DNA from: Lachnospiraceae bacterium
Lineage (GTDB): Bacteria; Bacillota; Clostridia; Lachnospirales; Lachnospiraceae
NCBI GenBank assembly: GCA_024404675.1
Contig: JAKSPO010000012.1
Location: forward strand, 1-56,493
Reading direction: 5' to 3'
DNA length: 56,493 nt
Shown: positions 26,390 to 35,233 of the stretch, piece after piece
Position numbering within the stretch: position 1 is the first letter of the stretch
Layout: the number at the start of each line of letters is the position of its first letter
Notes under the pieces: generated by a model
Seen by the model: the letters and a program-made list of their open reading frames with translations, nothing else
The model's database searches: none
Told to the model about the DNA's origin: nothing
Made by a program: the position numbers and the translations under genes

Positions 26390-26501
26390 CAGGATGTTGC
26401 CGGAGAAACTGCCCGGATGGCAGGCGGCGATTCAAAAATGAGCGCGGAATGGACGGTTATTGCCTGGCATCCGGCTCGCGCAATTGACAGTTTATGATTG
26501 A

Positions 26502-26597
26502 AGGGGAATGAGGTTCTCCCCAAGTATTATTACTTAAACCGCTTACAAAAAGCTGATGACTTCTGCAGAATACGCAGAAATTGTCGGCTTTTTCTTT
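26502..26597 (+). promoter_or_regulatory. Fluoride riboswitch (crcB motif)
   Basis: The 5' half matches the conserved GGxGAUGxxGUUCxCC block (GGGGAATGAGGTTCTCCCC, 26503-26521). The 3' half has the hallmark GCTGATGACTTCTGC (26552-26566). The antiporter gene starts 64 nt after the aptamer. Fluoride riboswitches are known to control fluoride exporters and CPA-type antiporters. Binding would prevent the terminator formed by the aptamer 3' strand and 26574-26592. Confidence 0.82.
26547..26597 (+). terminator. Riboswitch-controlled intrinsic terminator
   Basis: AAAAGC..GAC-TTCTGC (26547-26566) pairs with GCAGAA-..GTC-GGCTTTT (26574-26592), followed by TTTCTTTG. It shares the aptamer's 3' strand, so it is mutually exclusive with the ligand-bound form. 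Confidence 0.8.
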
Positions 26598-26629: not shown

Positions 26630-27850
26630 ATGTTATTAAGTATCTCACTGATTCTTTTAGTCGGAATGTCCGCAGGGGCAATCTGCCGAAAGCTCAAGCT
26701 GCCGAGTCTGATCGGCATGCTTGCAACGGGCATCGTACTCGGCCCGTACGTGCTCGACCTGCTAGATGCAAGCATACTCGGCGTTTCGGCGGAGCTGAGG
26801 AAGATTGCGCTTGTCATCATCCTTACAAGAGCCGGCCTGTCCTTCGATTTCTCGGGGCTAAGGAAGCTCGGCCGCCCCGCACTTCTTATGTGCTTCGTGC
26901 CGGCAAGCTTCGAGCTTCTCGGAATGCTTCTGTTAACGCCGCGATTGCTTGGACTTTCCCTTCTTGAAGTAGCGATCCTTGGTGCAGTGCTTGCGGCGGT
27001 TTCGCCTGCAGTCGTGGTGCCGCGAATGGTTAAGCTGATGGAAGAGGGCTACGGCACCGAGGCGGGGATCCCGCAGCTGATTCTGGCGGGAGCTTCGGTC
27101 GACGATGTGTATGTCATCGTTCTGTTCTCCACATTTGTAGGCATGATGAAGGGCGAAGGCGCTTCCGTTATGCGCTTTGTGAATATTCCGGTCTCCATCG
27201 TGCTCGGCATCGCCATCGGACTTCTTGTCGGGGTGGCGCTTGCGTTCTTCTTTCAGAAGGTGCACATTCGTGACACGGCAAAGGTGCTGATCATTCTAAG
27301 CATCTCGCTTCTGCTGGTCGTTTGGGAGGATAGCATGAAAACGGCCATCACCTTCTCCGCGCTGATTGCAATTATGTTCATCGGCGTAGGACTTCTGTGG
27401 CGCCGCGAGGTCGTTGCCAGACGCCTCTCCGCCAAATACGGGAAGCTCTGGGTGGCAGCAGAGGTGTTTCTGTTCGTCCTTGTCGGCGCGACGGTCAATA
27501 TCCAGTACCTCGGTAAGGTCGGCGGCAAAGCACTTCTGGTCATCGCAGGAGCACTCGTATTTCGTATGCTCGGCGTACTCGTCTGTCTGCTCGGAACGAA
27601 GCTTACCGCCGCAGAGCGGGCATTTGTCATGATGACCTATACCCCGAAGGCAACGGTCCAGGCAGCAATCGGCGGCGTTCCGTTAGCGCTCGGCTTTGCC
27701 TGCGGCGAGACGGTCCTTACGGTAGCGGTACTCGCAATCGTTCTAACGGCGCCGATCGGTGCATTTGCCATCGATCTGACGTATCAGAGACTCTTATGCA
27801 AGAAAGTAAGTGAAACTCAGGAAAATGAAGATACTACCGCTGTAGAATAG
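26630..27850 (+). CDS. Cation/proton antiporter (CPA superfamily)
   Basis: 406 residues with about 12 membrane helices, beginning LLSISLILLVGMSAGAICRK. The CPA core is visible, including the acidic DD in ILAGASVDDVYVIVLF, the ion-binding helix. The family exchanges Na+ or K+ for protons. Placement behind a fluoride riboswitch suggests that this member relieves fluoride stress, directly or by pH/ion balance. No crcB/fluc or CLC-F gene is nearby, so it may be the main responder. The ribosome site is GGAGACGG. Confidence 0.9.
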   Translation: MLLSISLILLVGMSAGAICRKLKLPSLIGMLATGIVLGPYVLDLLDASILGVSAELRKIALVIILTRAGLSFDFSGLRKLGRPALLMCFVPASFELLGMLLLTPRLLGLSLLEVAILGAVLAAVSPAVVVPRMVKLMEEGYGTEAGIPQLILAGASVDDVYVIVLFSTFVGMMKGEGASVMRFVNIPVSIVLGIAIGLLVGVALAFFFQKVHIRDTAKVLIILSISLLLVVWEDSMKTAITFSALIAIMFIGVGLLWRREVVARRLSAKYGKLWVAAEVFLFVLVGATVNIQYLGKVGGKALLVIAGALVFRMLGVLVCLLGTKLTAAERAFVMMTYTPKATVQAAIGGVPLALGFACGETVLTVAVLAIVLTAPIGAFAIDLTYQRLLCKKVSETQENEDTTAVE

Positions 27851-28422: not shown

Positions 28423-28520
28423 GCGTACCGTACATTCCGCGAATATCTGAAGGGCTACTTCAAAAATATGTTTGACAAAAAGTACAGTCTGTGGTAAGTT
28501 ATTGCCATAAACAAGAGCAG

Positions 28521-28548
28521 AGACGTTCCTTAAGGGAGCGTCTTTTTG
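28521..28548 (+). terminator. Rho-independent terminator
   Basis: AGACGTTCC (28521-28529) pairs with GGAGCGTCT (28535-28543; one G-T) and runs into TTTTT. Confidence 0.75.
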
Positions 28549-28751: not shown

Positions 28752-30077
28752 ATGAAACAACAAGAACAACAGCTATTGCAGCACACAGACAAAATCAATG
28801 ACTTGTTGGCCCGCTACGGAGTAAAATTCGGAATCTATAAGAACAACACCTTTAAGGAACAGTTATTCCCCTTCGATTCCATACCAAGAATCATAGAACA
28901 CGCCGAATTTGAGATGCTCGAGCGAGGGTTGAAGCAGAGAGTTTTGGCCCTCAATCTGTTCCTTAAGGACATTTATTCGGAGAAGAAGATCGTGAAGGAC
29001 GGTGTGGTTCCCGAGGATTTCATCTTCGCATCCTCCGGCTATATGGCAGAGTGCGAGGGTGTGCTTCCGATGAAGGGAATCTATTCCCACATATCAGGAA
29101 TCGACCTTGTTAAAGGTAAGAACAACGAGTGGTATGTGCTCGAGGATAACTTAAGAGTTCCTTCCGGTGCATCCTATCCGATGATTGCAAGAGACCTTTG
29201 CCGAAAGAGCTCTCCGGAGACCTTCAGCAATACGAAGCTTCTTGATAACCGAAATTATGCAGAGCTTCTCAGAAAGACAATGGATAACGTAAATACAGGC
29301 GGACATACGGTTATTCTCACACCCGGCCGTTACAATGCGGCCTACTTCGAGCATTCCTATCTTGCAGAGAAGACGGGCGCGCATCTTGTAAGCGGCTCGG
29401 AGCTTTTCGTGGAAAATGACTGTCTCTATTTCATCGGTGCCGGCGGCGTGAAGGAAAGAGTCGGTGCGGTATACAGAAGAATCTCCGACGAATACCTCGA
29501 TCCGATGAATTTCAATCCGGAATCTCTGATCGGAATCCCGCACATTTACGATGTATTCCGTAAGGGCAACGTTGCACTTCTGAATGCACCAGGAAACGGT
29601 GTTGCGGACGATAAGGGTATCTATTATTTCGTTCCGAAGATGGTTAAGTACTACCTGAACGAAGAACCGGTGCTTCAGAATGCGCCGACGTATCTTCCGT
29701 TCTATGCGGAGGATATGGACTATGTTCTTAAGCATTTTGACGATTTGGTGCTTAAGGATGTTGCGGAGGCAGGCGGCTACGGTGTTGTATTCGGTAACAC
29801 GATGACCGCTAAGCAGAAGGAGGATTTCATCGCTCTTCTGAAAGCCGAGCCGAGACGCTTCATCGCGCAGGAGGTTATCGATTTCCAGGATCTGGACATT
29901 CTGGACGAGGGCAGAATCGTTCCGAGAAAGGCAGACTGGAGAGCCTTTGTACTGATGGCGGACGAACCGCTTGTCTGGGCCAGCGGCTTGACAAGATTCT
30001 CAAGAAATCCCGATTCATTTATTGTTAACTCATCACAAGGAGGAGGTTTCAAGGACACATGGGTATTATCTCAGTAG
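28752..30077 (+). CDS. Circularly permuted ATP-grasp protein (DUF404/DUF407 type)
   Basis: 441 residues from ATG 28752 behind AAGGAGGA. The sequence is that of the COG2308 group: YGVKFGIYKNNTFKEQLFPF, LEDNLRVPSGASYPM, a Gly-rich LKDVAEAGGYGVVFG loop, and the late FVLMADEPLVWASGLTRF. Circularly permuted ATP-grasp enzymes activate a carboxylate as acyl phosphate and join it to an amine. Family members sit with alpha-E and transglutaminase genes, as here, and are predicted amidoligases making peptide-like products; the product is unknown. Its end overlaps the alpha-E gene by 19 nt. Confidence 0.92.
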   Translation: MKQQEQQLLQHTDKINDLLARYGVKFGIYKNNTFKEQLFPFDSIPRIIEHAEFEMLERGLKQRVLALNLFLKDIYSEKKIVKDGVVPEDFIFASSGYMAECEGVLPMKGIYSHISGIDLVKGKNNEWYVLEDNLRVPSGASYPMIARDLCRKSSPETFSNTKLLDNRNYAELLRKTMDNVNTGGHTVILTPGRYNAAYFEHSYLAEKTGAHLVSGSELFVENDCLYFIGAGGVKERVGAVYRRISDEYLDPMNFNPESLIGIPHIYDVFRKGNVALLNAPGNGVADDKGIYYFVPKMVKYYLNEEPVLQNAPTYLPFYAEDMDYVLKHFDDLVLKDVAEAGGYGVVFGNTMTAKQKEDFIALLKAEPRRFIAQEVIDFQDLDILDEGRIVPRKADWRAFVLMADEPLVWASGLTRFSRNPDSFIVNSSQGGGFKDTWVLSQ

Positions 30078-30724
30078 AACAGGTTGACCACCTTTACTGG
30101 TTAGGCAGATACACGGAGCGCGTGTATACGACCTTGAAAATGTTTGCAAAAAGCTTTGATAAAATGATTGATTCCGCCGATGCGGTATATCCCGAGTACT
30201 GTGATGCTTTGGATATCCCGAATATTTACGAGTCAAAGGGCGATTTTCTCAGACGCTATCCTTTTGACGCAGGGATTGCGGATTCGATTATCAGTAACCT
30301 GAACCGTGCTTATGATAACGCAATCGTATTGCGTGAGACAATCGGTTCGGACGCACTTTCCTATATCCAGCTGTCTGTTTATGCGATGAGCAATGCAGCG
30401 AAGAGTGAGTCGCCGCTTATCGAGATTCAGCAGATTATGGACGACCTGCTTTCCTTCTGGGGAATCGTAGACGATCAGATCGACGACGAGCAGATTCGAA
30501 ACATTATCAAGGCGGGTAAGAGAATCGAGCGAATCGATTTATACGCAAGACTGGAGCTTGACAAATTCAAGCTTGAGCGTGAGCTTCATCGAATGATTCC
30601 GAGAGTGCTTCGAAGCGGTATTCGCTACAACGAGGCAGCGCTCAACAAGCTGAATACGCTTATCAATGATAATGCGATGGATTATGCCGGCATCATTTCA
30701 AGTGTTGAGACGATTGTGGCCTGA
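30059..30724 (+). CDS. Alpha-E domain protein (DUF403)
   Basis: 221 residues, almost entirely alpha-helical. The N-terminus VEQVDHLYWLGRYTERVYTT is the alpha-E signature. Usual members are nearer 300 residues, so this is a short version. Alpha-E proteins are the constant partners of the permuted ATP-grasp enzymes and may form a complex or scaffold; their reaction, if any, is not known. The start lies within the end of the ATP-grasp gene with AGGAGGAGG upstream, implying coupled translation. Confidence 0.9.
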   Translation: MGIISVEQVDHLYWLGRYTERVYTTLKMFAKSFDKMIDSADAVYPEYCDALDIPNIYESKGDFLRRYPFDAGIADSIISNLNRAYDNAIVLRETIGSDALSYIQLSVYAMSNAAKSESPLIEIQQIMDDLLSFWGIVDDQIDDEQIRNIIKAGKRIERIDLYARLELDKFKLERELHRMIPRVLRSGIRYNEAALNKLNTLINDNAMDYAGIISSVETIVA

Positions 30725-30756
30725 TCCCTTAAGAACATAGGTTAGAAGGTGAAAAT

Positions 30757-31551
30757 GTGGCTTTTTTGAATTATGAGTATCAAATGATAATCCGCTATTC
30801 CGAGCCGGTGGAGAAGTGCTATTTTACCATCAAATCCATTCCGGCGGACGATTTTAAGCAAAGGAGCATCTCCTATGCAATCAGCATGAGTCCGAACACG
30901 ACCTACTCCCTGGGAAGAGATTCCTTCGGCAATGCGCAGATCATCGGAAGCGTAGCCTTTCCGCACTCGGAGTATATCTATACCATCAAAGGAATGGTCG
31001 AGACGAACGAGTCTCCCGTGACCGGCGGCGTGAACGAGGCCTTGGTCGGTATGTATAAGTATCCGCACGGAAAATGTGTTCCCGGTCCGAAGCTTACCGC
31101 CTTTTCAAAATCTATCAAGGCGCTGGTAGAGGGTTGCGCATCCGACCGCGACCGCTGCCTTACAATCATGCGAGAGCTTAAAAAGGTTATGACGTACGAG
31201 AAAGGCTGTACGGAGGTGGGAACGAGCGCCGAGGAGGCATTTGCCGGCGGAAAGGGCGTGTGTCAGGATTTTTCTCATATTTTCATTACCATGCTTCGAA
31301 TATTCGGCATTCCTGCGAGATATGTCTGCGGCCTGATTGTCGGAGAGGGAGAGAGTCATGCCTGGGTGGAGGCCTGCATTGACGGAAGCTATGTGGCGTA
31401 CGACCCCACGCATAACATAGAAATTTCCGATGAATACATCAAGCTCGGTGTCGGGCGCGATGCAGTCGATTGTGCCATCAACCGCGGCGTCATGTGGGGC
31501 GGCGGTGCACAGACGCAGGAGATTAACGTTCTGGTAGACAAATATTACTAG
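30757..31551 (+). CDS. Transglutaminase-like cysteine protease/transferase
   Basis: 264 residues from GTG 30757 behind AGAAGGTG. The transglutaminase triad is intact: C169 (GGKGVCQDFSH), H201 (GESHAWVEA) and D216 (AYDPTHN). The N-terminal 110 residues form the beta-rich domain typical of bacterial transglutaminase-like proteins next to alpha-E genes. No signal peptide, so it is cytosolic. It would form or cut an isopeptide or amide bond on the ATP-grasp product (inference). Confidence 0.92.
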   Translation: MAFLNYEYQMIIRYSEPVEKCYFTIKSIPADDFKQRSISYAISMSPNTTYSLGRDSFGNAQIIGSVAFPHSEYIYTIKGMVETNESPVTGGVNEALVGMYKYPHGKCVPGPKLTAFSKSIKALVEGCASDRDRCLTIMRELKKVMTYEKGCTEVGTSAEEAFAGGKGVCQDFSHIFITMLRIFGIPARYVCGLIVGEGESHAWVEACIDGSYVAYDPTHNIEISDEYIKLGVGRDAVDCAINRGVMWGGGAQTQEINVLVDKYY

Positions 31552-31566
31552 TCGAGGAGAAGACAA

Positions 31567-32520
31567 ATGGTAGAAATCGTTACAATGGTCGGACTTCCGA
31601 TCGACGAAAAGCTGATGATCAAAAAGAATCGGATTGCACCTGCGGGCGCCGATCCGAAGGGGCTTAAGCGAATCAGCGTGGTAACGGGAATTCACGGCGA
31701 CGAGTTAGAGGGGCAGTATGTCTGCTACGAGCTGCAGCGGAGAATCAGCCTGGAAAAGGATAAGCTTACCGGAATTGTGGATATTTATCCGGCGATGAAT
31801 CCGCTCGGCATCGATTCCATTACCAGAGGTATTCCGGCATTTGACCTTGATATGAACCGTATCTTTCCCGGCAACAAGGACGGCAATATGACAGAGTATC
31901 TCGCAGCCGGTATCATCGATGATGTGCGCGGCTCCGATTGTGTGGTTGACATTCATGCGAGCAACATCTATCTGACGGAGATTCCGCAGATTCGAATCAA
32001 TGAGCTGCATGCCGAGCGTCTTGTGCCGCTCGCGAAGGCGGCAAATGTGGACTTTATCTGGGTTCACGGCGCAAGCACTGTTTTGGAATCCACCTTTGCA
32101 CACAGCCTCAATAGCATCGGAACGCCCGTGCTTGTTGTGGAAATGGGTGTAGGCATGCGACTTACCAAGGAATACGGCAACCAGATGGTAGACGGCATAT
32201 TCAGACTGATGCAGGAGCTTGGCATCTGGGGTGGGGAGACGATTCCCGTTCGGAAGCCGATGATTTCGCAGAACCCGTATGACGTCAGCTATCTGAATGC
32301 TTCGGCGAGCGGTCTTTTTGTGCCGAGCGTCAAGCATGGCGCGAGACTTGCGGAGGGCGAGCTGATCGGTCTGATTGTGGATCCACTCGAGGGACGGGTT
32401 CTCGATGAGGTCAGAGCGCCGCAGGCGGGACTTCTGTTTACGATAAGAGACTATCCGATTGTGGATGAGGGCTCTCTGATGGGAAGAATTCTGAAGGAGG
32501 AGGTCTGCCGGTATGCGTAA
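31567..32520 (+). CDS. Succinylglutamate desuccinylase/aspartoacylase-type metallohydrolase (M14-like)
   Basis: 317 residues. The zinc site of the AstE/AspA group is complete: H43-G-D-E46, H130 (VVDIHAS), and the catalytic Glu E192 (VLVVEMGVG). Substrate-binding MNRIFPG is also kept. The C-terminal 80 residues form a lipoyl-like beta domain (APQAGLLF). These enzymes hydrolyse N-acyl amino acids or peptides. The next gene is a diverged copy, overlapping by 8 nt. As part of the operon it may trim or release the amide product. Confidence 0.9.
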   Translation: MVEIVTMVGLPIDEKLMIKKNRIAPAGADPKGLKRISVVTGIHGDELEGQYVCYELQRRISLEKDKLTGIVDIYPAMNPLGIDSITRGIPAFDLDMNRIFPGNKDGNMTEYLAAGIIDDVRGSDCVVDIHASNIYLTEIPQIRINELHAERLVPLAKAANVDFIWVHGASTVLESTFAHSLNSIGTPVLVVEMGVGMRLTKEYGNQMVDGIFRLMQELGIWGGETIPVRKPMISQNPYDVSYLNASASGLFVPSVKHGARLAEGELIGLIVDPLEGRVLDEVRAPQAGLLFTIRDYPIVDEGSLMGRILKEEVCRYA

Positions 32521-33448
32521 GAAAATCATATATGAGATTAAGGGAATGTACCGGGATGATTTCAGAATCACGGGATATGAATTCGGACAGGGCGAGAAGT
32601 CTGTCTGCATCATCGGTAATTCCCGTGGCAATGAGGTACAGCAGACCTATTGCTGCGCACAGCTTGTCAAGAAGATGAAGCAGCTAGAGGAAGAGGGAAG
32701 AATCAAGGACGGACACAAGGTTCTGATCATTCCGTCCATCAACCCGTATTCCATGAATATTCAGAAGCGCTTCTGGCCGACCGATAATACTGACATCAAC
32801 AGAATGTTCCCGGGCTACGATCTGGGAGAAACCACGCAGCGAATCGCAGACGGTGTCTTCCGTGAGATTAAGGATTACGAATTCGGAATTCAGTTTACCT
32901 CCTTTTATATGCCCGGTGATTTTGTGCCGCATGTGCGATATATGAAGGAAGGCTTCACAACGGTGGAGGATGCGAAGAAATTCGGAATGAAGTATATTGT
33001 GGAAAGAGCCGTAAGACCGTATGACACGGCAACGCTGAATTATAACTGGCAGGTTTGGGACACTAAGGCATTTTCCTTATATACGAACACAACGACGCGA
33101 ATCAGTAAGACCGGAGCGGGGCAGGCGGTGATGGCAATCATGAACTTCATGGCCTGTAACGATATCATCAAATACAGCGCCATCAGCGAGAAGAAGAGCC
33201 GGATGTTTAATGATACCGAGCTCATCTCCGTAAGAACCGCGAAGTCCGGTTTTTATGAGCCGCTTGTTAAAGCAGGCGATAAGGTGGAGGCGGGAACACC
33301 GCTTGCGGATATCGTGAACCCTTACGACGGCAGCGTACTGGAGACACTTTACGCACCGGTGCCGGGCGTCATATTTTTCATTCACAATGAACCGCTTACT
33401 TATGCTAACACCGCAGTCATCAAGATTCTTGCGGACGATATGGATTGA
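32513..33448 (+). CDS. AstE/AspA-like paralogue lacking the zinc and catalytic residues
   Basis: 311 residues, clearly related to the preceding protein (INRMFPG and the C-terminal APVPGVIFFIH domain are shared). The metal site is gone: the HGDE motif reads R38-G-N-E41, the DIH motif reads QFT (T129), and the catalytic Glu region has no Glu (LYTNTTTR). The frame, codon use and ribosome context are intact, so it is a maintained protein rather than a pseudogene. It is probably a regulatory or substrate-binding partner of the active paralogue (inference). A strong terminator follows. Confidence 0.85.
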   Translation: MRKKIIYEIKGMYRDDFRITGYEFGQGEKSVCIIGNSRGNEVQQTYCCAQLVKKMKQLEEEGRIKDGHKVLIIPSINPYSMNIQKRFWPTDNTDINRMFPGYDLGETTQRIADGVFREIKDYEFGIQFTSFYMPGDFVPHVRYMKEGFTTVEDAKKFGMKYIVERAVRPYDTATLNYNWQVWDTKAFSLYTNTTTRISKTGAGQAVMAIMNFMACNDIIKYSAISEKKSRMFNDTELISVRTAKSGFYEPLVKAGDKVEAGTPLADIVNPYDGSVLETLYAPVPGVIFFIHNEPLTYANTAVIKILADDMD

Positions 33449-33478: not shown

Positions 33479-33514
33479 AAAGGACCAATGCGAACAGCAA
33501 GCATTGGTCCTTTT
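33479..33514. terminator. Bidirectional terminator of the ATP-grasp operon
   Basis: A perfect 13-bp stem AAAGGACCAATGC (33479-33491) / GCATTGGTCCTTT (33501-33513), then T. It lies between convergent genes. Confidence 0.9.
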
Positions 33515-33550: not shown

Positions 33551-34390
33551 CTAATGTATCCCGCCCGGGCTATTTTCGTATTTGGCGGTCAGGTCCTGTA
33601 GCTCCTGGTCGACCATAAGGGGCATGGAGTTCGGCAGAGTGATGTTTACGCCGTTCGCCTGCAGGAAACGGTAGCCGATCATAAAGGTGGCATCGTCAAA
33701 GCTTGTGAAGAAGCGCTGGTTGATTGCTTCGATGCACTGCTCGATTGTCGCAAAGCTTGCGATATCGAAGGAGGTGAAAACCTGGCGGTAGTAATTCAGA
33801 CAGAGCTGCTTCTGATAAGCAAAATCAGTAGAAATATCCTGAACGTTGAAGGCCTTCAGGAAGGCACGAAGCCATCCGCGCGGACCGGCGAACCAGCTGT
33901 TTACGGAGGTATAGGTCTGATCCATGGCAAGTAACTCCTCCTGCCACTCAACCGATTGGAACGAACCGGACACGATGCTTTCAATCTGCTGGGGTGTGAG
34001 AAAAAGATTGTATTTTTCGTTGAATTTTTCCACAATCTTTCTGCGTCCGGCTACCGTCTTCGGAAGTGTCGAAGCGACGATTGCCGGCATATTCGAATAT
34101 CGTGCGATGGATTGTGGCGCCGACTTTTTTGCGCGCATCTTCCCTACGATGGCAAGAATAAGATATACGGGAAGAGAGCAGAGCGTCAGTGCGGTAAGGA
34201 TAAGCATCTCGTCATAGAATGCGCTTCCTTCCCAGCCGGCAAGGTCGGCGGAAACACCTAAAACGGTACCGAGGATAATCAGACTCGGAAAGAAACGAAA
34301 TAACCGTTTGGAAAGCTTTCGCATGCGGCCTTCCTCCGGAAAGCGGGAGCCGATCATCCCGAGAATCGTATATATTAAAAAAGTCCACAT
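33551..34390 (-). CDS. Membrane protein of unknown function
   Basis: 279 residues from ATG 34390, with AAAGGA upstream; in-frame sequence above it is not supported. Hydrophobic helices lie at about 1-13 (MWTFLIYTILGMIG), 32-48 (FFPSLIILGTVLGVSADL) and 57-80 (MLILTALTLCSLPVYLILAIV). The remaining 190 residues are a cytosolic-looking helical region with no motif I recognise. Promoter TTGACA-17-TATGAT precedes it, so it is expressed alone and meets the ATP-grasp operon tail to tail. Confidence 0.65.
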   Translation of the reverse strand: MWTFLIYTILGMIGSRFPEEGRMRKLSKRLFRFFPSLIILGTVLGVSADLAGWEGSAFYDEMLILTALTLCSLPVYLILAIVGKMRAKKSAPQSIARYSNMPAIVASTLPKTVAGRRKIVEKFNEKYNLFLTPQQIESIVSGSFQSVEWQEELLAMDQTYTSVNSWFAGPRGWLRAFLKAFNVQDISTDFAYQKQLCLNYYRQVFTSFDIASFATIEQCIEAINQRFFTSFDDATFMIGYRFLQANGVNITLPNSMPLMVDQELQDLTAKYENSPGGIH

Positions 34391-34478
34391 AGGTATTGGT
34401 CCTTTACGTTTGATACTGAGGCGCCTGCGGGCATTCCTCATACTGCGCCTTACTGTGGCAGCAGACTGCGATAATGCA

Positions 34479-34507
34479 ATCATAAGATTTACACCTTGGA
34501 TTGTCAA
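34479..34507 (-). promoter_or_regulatory. Sigma-A promoter of the membrane-protein gene
   Basis: Minus strand: TTGACA (34507-34502), 17 bp, TATGAT (34484-34479); leader about 80 nt. Confidence 0.8.
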
Positions 34508-34546
34508 GAAAATAGATTTTCGCGGAAGCATCCAGCCTCGAATCCC

Positions 34547-34575
34547 TTGAAAGGAAAGCGCGTATTTGGTATGAT
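34547..34575 (+). promoter_or_regulatory. Sigma-A promoter of the nucleotidase-GNAT pair
   Basis: TTGAAA (34547-34552), 17 bp, TATGAT (34570-34575). It is divergent from the promoter at 34479-34507. Confidence 0.75.
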
Positions 34576-34615
34576 GAGAGGCAGGTAACAGAAACGGAAG
34601 GGAGGCCTTTTGTTT

Positions 34616-35233
34616 ATGAAAATCTACGTTGATTTTGATGATGTGCTCTGTGAGTCGGGACGCTTCTTCTCCGAGCTTGCAAAGGAGATGTTCGGGATTG
34701 ATGTGCCGTATCAGGAGGTGCAGTTTTTCAATCTTAAGAAAACCTTTGGGCTTGCGGACGCGCAGTATGAAGCACTGATGCAGACCGGGCATCTTCCGGA
34801 GAAGCTTCTTTCGTATGAGGAGACGCCCGGTGCATCGGAAACCATCAACCGTTGGGTGGATGCCGGCCACGAGGTGTCAATCATCACAGGGCGTCCGTTC
34901 GATGCCTATGAGCCCTCGAGAAGCTGGCTCGACGCACACGGACTTGCGCGCGTTCCGATGTTCTGTGTCGACAAATACGGCCGCGAGACCGGAAGTCACG
35001 GGAACAGCTACAATATGACGCTTGCGGAGCTGTACAAGCGCCGGTTTGACTTTGCGGTTGAGGACTCGCCGGCTGCCTTTACGCATGTGATGCATTTTCC
35101 GAATTGCAGGGTGGCGGTATATCACAGACCATGGAATGTGACGGCGGAATTCCCGAACGACAATTTTGTGAGATGTCATAGCTGGCAGGAGGTAGATCAT
35201 TATCTGACTACGCTATGCGGTGAGGAAGCGTAA
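34616..35233 (+). CDS. HAD-like 5'-nucleotidase (NT5C-type)
   Basis: 205 residues from ATG 34616, ten nt after GGAGG; an in-frame TTG at 34610 is too close to that site. Motif I is DFDDVLC near the N-terminus, motif II lies in IITGRPFDA and motif IV in FAVEDSPAAF. This fits the NT5C/pyrimidine deoxynucleotidase-like HAD group, which removes the 5' phosphate from nucleotides, though other small phosphates are possible. It is translationally coupled to the GNAT gene behind it. Confidence 0.8.
   Translation: MKIYVDFDDVLCESGRFFSELAKEMFGIDVPYQEVQFFNLKKTFGLADAQYEALMQTGHLPEKLLSYEETPGASETINRWVDAGHEVSIITGRPFDAYEPSRSWLDAHGLARVPMFCVDKYGRETGSHGNSYNMTLAELYKRRFDFAVEDSPAAFTHVMHFPNCRVAVYHRPWNVTAEFPNDNFVRCHSWQEVDHYLTTLCGEEA

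Follow-up and report, generated by a model that had tools for sequence, protein, structure and literature searches.

What would an operon make whose first three genes belong to a set usually joined to a proteasome-like peptidase, and whose last two encode a zinc amidohydrolase and a zinc-less look-alike of it? This question is raised by a contig of a Lachnospiraceae bacterium (GenBank assembly GCA_024404675.1, contig JAKSPO010000012.1), of which we analyzed positions 1 to 56,493 (56,493 nt; hereafter, the window). Five genes on its + strand encode a circularly permuted (CP) ATP-grasp ligase (28752..30077, 441 aa; PF14403, E 8.8e-132), a short Alpha-E protein (30059..30724, 221 aa; PF04168, E 4.6e-19), a transglutaminase-like cysteine enzyme (30757..31551, 264 aa, GTG start; PF01841, E 3.8e-21, and PF08379, E 3.2e-9), the AstE/AspA-type zinc amidohydrolase Asp1 (31567..32520, 317 aa; PF24827, E 7.2e-24) and its zinc-site-less AspA paralogue Asp2 (32513..33448, 311 aa; PF24827, E 5.2e-10). 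All five proteins lie above the curated cut-offs in a Pfam search of the window proteins, and the junctions between their genes are overlapping or short. A first-pass annotation made from the sequence alone had described five overlapping or closely spaced genes of these identities at 28752..33448, as the coordinates and Pfam families confirm; it had not included the truncation of Alpha-E or the wide recurrence of the cassette. An NCBIfam search of the five proteins gave none above cut-off, and none (0/5) matched PADLOC anti-phage defence models at E 0.001. The ATP-grasp/Alpha-E/transglutaminase set is known; what differs here is the AspA-type hydrolase with its zinc-less look-alike replacing the proteasome-like peptidase.

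Distribution of the five-gene cassette

A genome-collection scan, run with an Asp2 alignment only, gave at least 554 confirmed relatives, of which the best-scoring 80 were compared as loci; statements on conservation therefore apply to the nearer part of the cassette family. More distant members were sampled as loci L004-L007, L010, L011 and L100-L103 and through a scan of 200 genomes from the window's family. All five genes were complete, in identical order and on the same strand, in 68 of the 80 loci, while a contig end cuts the other 12, which keep the order as far as it is visible. Because no locus (0/80) departs from this arrangement, the five-gene association is not due to chance. The genome-context search that the first-pass annotation had put forward as a check thus ties the AspA pair to the other three genes beyond this strain.

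Lachnospiraceae are named in 38 of the 80 record titles and related Clostridia in most others; the few titles with other groups (Bacteroides sp., Treponema sp., Bacillus sp.) may be misnamed bins. Many titles name gut or rumen samples, and the isolates include Eubacterium plexicaudatum ASF492 and Butyrivibrio sp. Alpha-E was found in 4/196 genomes of a class sample, the window's included, and in 9/398 genomes of a phylum sample, with full-profile ATP-grasp proteins in exactly those nine. Six of the nine also carry Asp2 (E 6.5e-40 or better); in G217, G361 and G409 the Asp2 search was negative at E 0.001, and among the other 389 genomes the best match was 2.5e-15, with none comparable. The class and phylum samples further provided four loci outside the family with a short Alpha-E like that of the window, all of which repeat the five-gene order and differ in their flanks. 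Within the family, the ligase was detected in 30/200 genomes, some with only fragments, and was absent from the one same-genus genome among the 200. The cassette is patchy within the family, yet not rare; given these 30 genomes and the cultured isolates among the loci, it is accessible to experimental testing.

Carriage by mobile elements was rejected. No Asp2 relative occurs in the viral contig collection, and Asp2 queries against plasmids gave only distant proteins among the matches listed (5 of 79 and 12 of 486 records), where the named ones carry AspA/DoeB-type names. ATP-grasp homologues occur on 117 plasmid records, all <60% identical, and in the three plasmid regions read, the ATP-grasp set is not accompanied by an AspA gene. 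An apparent 605-aa transglutaminase-Asp1 fusion in L016 was discarded as an artefact from a run of N.

Conserved residues of the five proteins

Profile alignment matches Asp1 H43/E46/H130/E192 with Asp2 R38/E41/Q127/Y190, and the further Asp1 residues R87/N97/R98 with Asp2 R86/N96/R97. In Asp1, H43/E46/H130 are presumably the zinc ligands and E192 the general base, as in the AspA/AstE family, and all four are invariant in 71/71 complete copies. Asp2 carries His-to-Arg, His-to-Gln and Glu-to-Tyr replacements at R38, Q127 and Y190, positions that we take from the same family to be those of two zinc His and the general-base Glu, and keeps E41, R86, N96 and R97; each of these seven states was found in 80/80 copies. 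The earlier designation of Asp2 as an inactive paralogue therefore holds as far as its residues indicate. In the outlying copy L006, the second zinc His is present at the Q127 position.

Despite this loss, 92 positions of Asp2 show at least 98% invariance across its 80 copies and that of the window. In 30 common pairs, with copies containing stops or N dropped, the median ratio of nonsynonymous to synonymous substitution rates (dN/dS) was 0.052 for Asp2, 0.068 for Asp1, 0.037 for the ligase, 0.066 for Alpha-E and 0.099 for the transglutaminase-like enzyme. By these measures, Asp2 is strongly constrained and not decaying. We infer from its sequence that the ligand pocket has probably been retained. 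Asp2 frames in the 80 loci reach at most 340 aa. A longer frame, L006:3669-5204 (-), in a genome of another family, fuses Asp2 to an S-adenosylmethionine-dependent methyltransferase domain (PF08241); it may point to methylation of the product or represent a one-off fusion, and having been seen in L006 only, it was rejected as a general clue.

Invariance was counted after dropping copies with N or under the length limit, which left 67, 63, 58, 71 and 80 of 71, 65, 60, 72 and 80 open reading frames for the ligase, Alpha-E, the transglutaminase-like enzyme, Asp1 and Asp2, respectively. The ligase covers profile positions 1-373 of 374 in PF14403 (440 bits versus a cut-off of 32), shows at least 98% invariance at 247 positions when 67 complete relatives are compared together with the window copy, and matches the solved structure PDB 3n6x (E 3.4e-131); its family predicts amide-bond ligase activity. 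Alpha-E (69.7 bits versus a cut-off of 20.8) covers only positions 6-169 of 294 in PF04168. Both of its ER motifs are retained, with E20-R21 and E157-R158 invariant in 63/63 copies. The Cys-His-Asp triad of the transglutaminase-like enzyme (C169/H201/D216), which the first-pass annotation had called intact, is present in 58/58 complete copies, and the protein aligns with PDB 3isr (E 4.6e-28). Solved relatives of Asp1 include PDB 2qj8 (E 2.9e-20) and DoeB (6twm, E 1.4e-10). The overlap between the ligase and Alpha-E genes is identical in 66/68 complete loci; Alpha-E is split into two frames in L072 and L086, and the ligase in L079.

Short and long cassette types

The cassettes fall into types that differ in their Alpha-E. 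In the short type, to which the window belongs, the C-terminal part is absent, as an alignment of five short-type with six long-type copies shows, and both ER motifs are kept. A long type with an AspA pair, read in two loci (L010, L011) of an order that belongs to another class, combines a longer ligase and a full-length Alpha-E with the transglutaminase, Asp1 and Asp2. The Asp1/Asp2 tandem occurs in 6/9 genomes of that order; the five genes were read in L010 and L011, and the four further genomes were checked for the tandem only. A long type without AspA is represented by L008 and L012. Ligases measure 483-497 aa in L008, L010, L011 and L012 versus 441 aa in the window. In L012, a single 633-aa protein (L012:6561-8462, -) appears to fuse Alpha-E and transglutaminase, which suggests that the two cooperate physically.

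In an unrooted tree of 18 Asp proteins, a 100/100 branch divides Asp1 from Asp2, and both cassette types are represented in either half. Built without an outgroup and with a program warning of long branches, this tree fits one Asp1/Asp2 duplication before the short/long split. The tree of 14 ligases sets the short type apart by a 100/100 branch, and its grouping with the long AspA type was rejected (approximately unbiased test, p 0.001). Since the Asp tree mixes the types while their ligases form no single clade, the AspA pair is, as far as the trees can tell, associated with two ligase lineages, through either ancient linkage and losses or transfer. Long-type Asp2 from the distant order retains His/Glu/His in 6/6 copies, with Leu replacing the catalytic Glu. 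Because this alignment shows zinc ligands without the base Glu, the general base appears to have been lost before the zinc site. An active Asp1, an Asp2 that has lost the base while keeping the zinc site, and a strongly conserved Asp2 lacking zinc would thus form a readable series in which an enzyme turned into a non-catalytic partner.

Comparison with Anbu operons and other known systems

The canonical operon, with the proteasome-like protein Anbu, reportedly goes back to Valas and Bourne (2008) and Iyer et al. (2009), as cited by other papers. The available text of PMC6376114 and PMC5666114 describes a conserved order of ATP-grasp, Alpha-E, transglutaminase and Anbu, with unconfirmed hypotheses on its role and no peptidase activity found for Anbu. 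For Yersinia, the accessible part of PMC6376114 reports that the operon's ATP-grasp enzyme releases phosphate from ATP. The window cassette shares the first three families, their order and strand and a hydrolase in last place, supporting the earlier assignment to this conserved set. A Paracoccus plasmid likewise carries ATP-grasp, Alpha-E and transglutaminase genes followed by one for a PF00227 protein. Unlike these, the window cassette has an AspA-type enzyme and a zinc-less paralogue, no Anbu gene among its five, an Alpha-E without the C-terminal part and a shorter ligase. Among the matches listed in searches of the open-access literature, we found no description of the AspA-pair variant, although an earlier mention in Iyer et al. 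(2009) is possible.

The first-pass annotation had also noted two AspA-like proteins instead of a proteasome-like peptidase, and the window's genome, which has no PF00227 match, agrees. No match was found in any of the 19 same-family cassette genomes examined of 30, the window's included. Among short-type genomes outside the family, G001 and G436 have unlinked PF00227 genes, G142 has a match below cut-off and G076 has none. In long-type genomes, a PF00227 protein is present in 6/6 with and 3/3 without AspA, encoded either well away from the cassette or on a different contig. Most of the PF00227 proteins found are 184-206-aa frames, an HslV-like length (one has 324), and these are probably HslV. 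Long-type AspA cassettes of the nine-genome order thus share the five families and their order with the window but differ in the full-length Alpha-E, the longer ligase, the zinc-ligand-bearing Asp2 with Leu for Glu and the unlinked PF00227 gene in 6/6.

Two other systems offer partial likenesses. Asp1 has the zinc-site and base residues of the DoeB/AspA/AstE family (PDB 6twm, 2qj8 and 3cdx); it differs from DoeB in scoring 54.6 bits versus an equivalog cut-off of 402.7 and in its pairing with a catalytically dead paralogue. Glutathionylspermidine synthetase/amidase combines an ATP-grasp amide ligase, from a different ATP-grasp family than the cassette ligase, with a papain-like amide hydrolase, whereas the cassette has separate proteins. 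PDB 3n6x, the solved homologue of the cassette ligase, is titled putative glutathionylspermidine synthase.

Genes next to the cassette

Neighbours were counted by short sequence motifs, on the same strand and in the fetched flanks of the 80 loci, with Pfam run on examples (two FUSC-type, two C26-type, one cytidylate-kinase-like, one citrate synthase and one isocitrate dehydrogenase); the thresholds of 3 kb and 230 bits used here and below were picked after the data had been seen. FUSC/ArAE-type genes occur in 18/80 loci (seven upstream, 11 downstream; 16 within 3 kb), and Pfam identified FUSC_2/ArAE_1 fused to a HAD domain in two examples of the 18. C26-type genes occur in 10/80 (three upstream, seven downstream; ten within 3 kb), with Peptidase_C26 confirmed by Pfam in two examples. 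Citrate synthase or isocitrate dehydrogenase lies within 3 kb in 8/80, with one example of each confirmed by Pfam, and a cytidylate-kinase-like neighbour (Cytidylate_kin2 by Pfam in one example) in 5/80. Short frames were noted for the FUSC-type gene in L058 and L060 and for the C26-type gene in L017. Similarity clusters at any distance comprised 20 loci for FUSC, ten for C26, 13 for the cytidylate-kinase-like gene and 15 and 16 for amino-acid ATP-binding cassette (ABC) transporter genes. Some loci combine these genes: the cassette is followed by citrate synthase, isocitrate dehydrogenase and FUSC-HAD in L014, the array in L017 runs from C26 (short frame) through the cassette and isocitrate dehydrogenase to FUSC-HAD, and upstream of the cassette in L105 lie a cytidylate-kinase-like gene, amino-acid ABC transporter genes and FUSC-HAD, partly named by eye. 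On the Asp2 tree of the 80 loci, FUSC requires 11 changes, C26 seven and citrate synthase/isocitrate dehydrogenase six, so these neighbours come and go often. The hypothesis that the C26 hydrolase is an obligate cassette part was rejected, as it was not seen in 70/80 fetched loci, many of which have short flanks, and has no relative in the window's genome at E 1e-15. G001 encodes one C26 relative of 38% identity some 4.4 kb away from its cassette.

FUSC-HAD relatives were found in 10/30 cassette versus 15/170 other family genomes (Fisher p 0.0009), or 9/29 without the query's own genome (p 0.0025). The window's genome encodes one on another contig, 56% identical and adjoining isocitrate dehydrogenase (the latter by eye). 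The first-pass annotation had concluded from the lack of a transporter gene that the product is probably intracellular: none indeed lies beside the window cassette, and the conclusion is weakened by the same-strand FUSC/ArAE-motif gene in 18/80 relatives. Exporter-like FUSC_2/ArAE_1-HAD fusions were located at L013:9933-11225 and L050:3960-5270 (both by Pfam) and at L104:6032-7357, and the FUSC-HAD gene adjoins isocitrate dehydrogenase in several genomes.

Possible function of the cassette

Judging by its protein families, the cassette would act on an amide-linked product. We tentatively favour, while holding it to be somewhat short of probable, the view that the five genes form a compact, self-contained unit for the synthesis and subsequent trimming of a small amide-linked molecule, likeliest a conjugate of glutamate or a related amino acid, in the service of nitrogen economy. 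The ATP-grasp ligase, helped by Alpha-E, would convert a carboxylate into an acyl phosphate and join it to an amine, and the transglutaminase-like enzyme would transfer or remove the acyl group at such an amide bond. Asp1 would hydrolyse an N-acyl amino-acid-type amide to a free amino acid, while Asp2 may bind the same carboxylate-bearing ligand uncut and serve Asp1 as partner or regulatory subunit. Together, the pair would fill the hydrolase place held by Anbu in published operons. A small-molecule product is preferred over protein tagging because the substrates of characterized AspA/AstE enzymes are small N-acyl amino acids. In favour of the module count the catalytic residues fixed in every complete copy, the gene order seen in 68/68 loci of sufficient length and in four genomes of other families, the two ligase lineages that accompany the AspA pair, the low dN/dS of Asp2, the lack of PF00227 matches in the 19 same-family cassette genomes, the phosphate release by the Yersinia ATP-grasp enzyme and the FUSC, C26 and citrate synthase/isocitrate dehydrogenase neighbours. 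The link to glutamate and nitrogen is our best-supported guess, drawn from the neighbouring genes and from reports of nitrogen control over the canonical set. In the accessible text of the respective papers, Anbu is upregulated at nitrogen limitation (PMC5666114, PMC6376114), the set is NtrC/sigma54-dependent in Burkholderia cenocepacia (PMC5491218), and it groups with urea-metabolism domains in marine metagenomes (PMC3597751).

Several observations weigh against a small amide-linked conjugate that serves nitrogen economy. We know of no cassette member with known substrate, product or activity, and the nitrogen evidence stems from distant canonical operons. For the canonical proteins, the available text of PMC6376114 reports pull-downs that detected no complex among them, and that of PMC5666114 describes them as dispensable without stress. 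Fewer than half of the 80 loci, which are moreover related to one another, have the neighbouring genes, and the window cassette has none of the FUSC, C26 and citrate synthase/isocitrate dehydrogenase genes beside it. FUSC-HAD is on the cassette's contig in only 3/10 genomes with both. The genome-wide C26 link is weak: relatives at E 1e-15 were found in 15/30 cassette versus 9/20 cassette-negative family genomes, the latter being the first listed without a ligase match, and the window's genome has none. With a threshold of 230 bits, the counts were 8/30 versus 1/20 (p 0.067), with 0/8 on the cassette's contig.

Among the alternatives, a scavenging route analogous to the Puu pathway, in which exogenous amines are acylated or glutamylated and ammonia or an amino acid is then freed by the transglutaminase-like enzyme and Asp1, seems to us unlikely though worth serious attention. 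It would account for the PuuD-type C26 genes near the cassette (10/80 loci by motif), for the amino-acid ABC transporter genes flanking some relatives and for the NtrC control described in the accessible text of PMC5491218. However, the conserved unit is without the oxidase or aminotransferase step of a Puu-like route, C26 was not seen in 70/80 loci (many with short flanks) or in the window's genome at E 1e-15, and the exporter-like FUSC gene fits export rather than uptake. We consider it improbable that proteins receive a small group or peptide from the ligase and transglutaminase and lose it again through Asp1 with Asp2. The transglutaminase fold often acts on proteins. Tagging and untagging is also, according to the available text of PMC6376114, a published hypothesis for the canonical Anbu operon. 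Against it, the best solved relatives of Asp1, among them 2qj8 and DoeB (6twm), place it with small N-acyl amino-acid hydrolases and not with proteases, and a small-modifier gene does not fit between the genes in most loci, where median gaps are 29, 41.5 and 4.5 nt (68 loci).

The same gaps in most loci leave no room for the precursor gene of a ribosomally synthesized and post-translationally modified peptide (RiPP), and the wider intergenic gaps of five loci (L085, L086, L090-L092) hold no open stretch >104 codons. ATP-grasp ligases and transglutaminase-fold proteins do occur in RiPP clusters, and the transglutaminase-fold lasso B2 model scored 14.7 bits, under its cut-off of 33; a RiPP-like natural product cluster nevertheless appears very improbable. 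Hardly credible is that Asp2 is a decaying pseudogene or neutral passenger, kept with its neighbours by inheritance within one lineage. Its lost catalytic site and the predominance of Lachnospiraceae (38/80) and related Clostridia would agree with this, whereas its 92 near-invariant positions and dN/dS of 0.052, the occurrence of the AspA pair beside another ligase lineage in a distant order, and the flanking genes that differ between many loci argue against it. A bolder version of small-amide synthesis, which we also regard as improbable, would make the cassette the gut-bacterial version of an ancient small-molecule amide pathway with the Anbu operon as its proteobacterial version: a glutamate-derived amide would be built, Asp2, once an enzyme and now a ligand-binding subunit without zinc, would sense its level and control Asp1, and FUSC-HAD would export it to the host gut. 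If true, the Anbu operon would be a metabolite pathway and not a protein-tagging system. For the favoured module that makes and trims an amino-acid conjugate, a family with defined small-molecule chemistry in the peptidase place would narrow the candidates to N-acyl amino-acid-type amides amenable to direct assay, and the question of what Anbu-type operons make would become testable by small-molecule assays.

Possible transcription signals and other features of the window

A terminator-like hairpin (28519..28545, +; 12 pairs, 3-nt loop, T-rich tail) lies between the preceding SseB-domain gene and the operon. Directly 3' of Asp2, a perfect 10-bp inverted repeat with a 9-nt loop, followed by TTTT (33482..33514, +; read by eye), is likely the end of the transcript; our terminator scan, with loops of 3-8 nt allowed, did not report it. 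The scan found two hairpins versus a shuffle mean of 4.5, a count not above shuffles. Promoter matches were likewise not above shuffles, and an Rfam scan near the operon start gave no match over the gathering score. Downstream of the cassette, a long open frame (window 33551-34870, -; start uncertain) has sub-threshold Pfam matches only. Upstream, at 26495-26572 (+), lies a fluoride riboswitch (RF01734, 49.4 bits, gathering 34), which together with the Na+/H+-exchanger-family gene directly downstream (26630-27850) likely forms a fluoride efflux unit.

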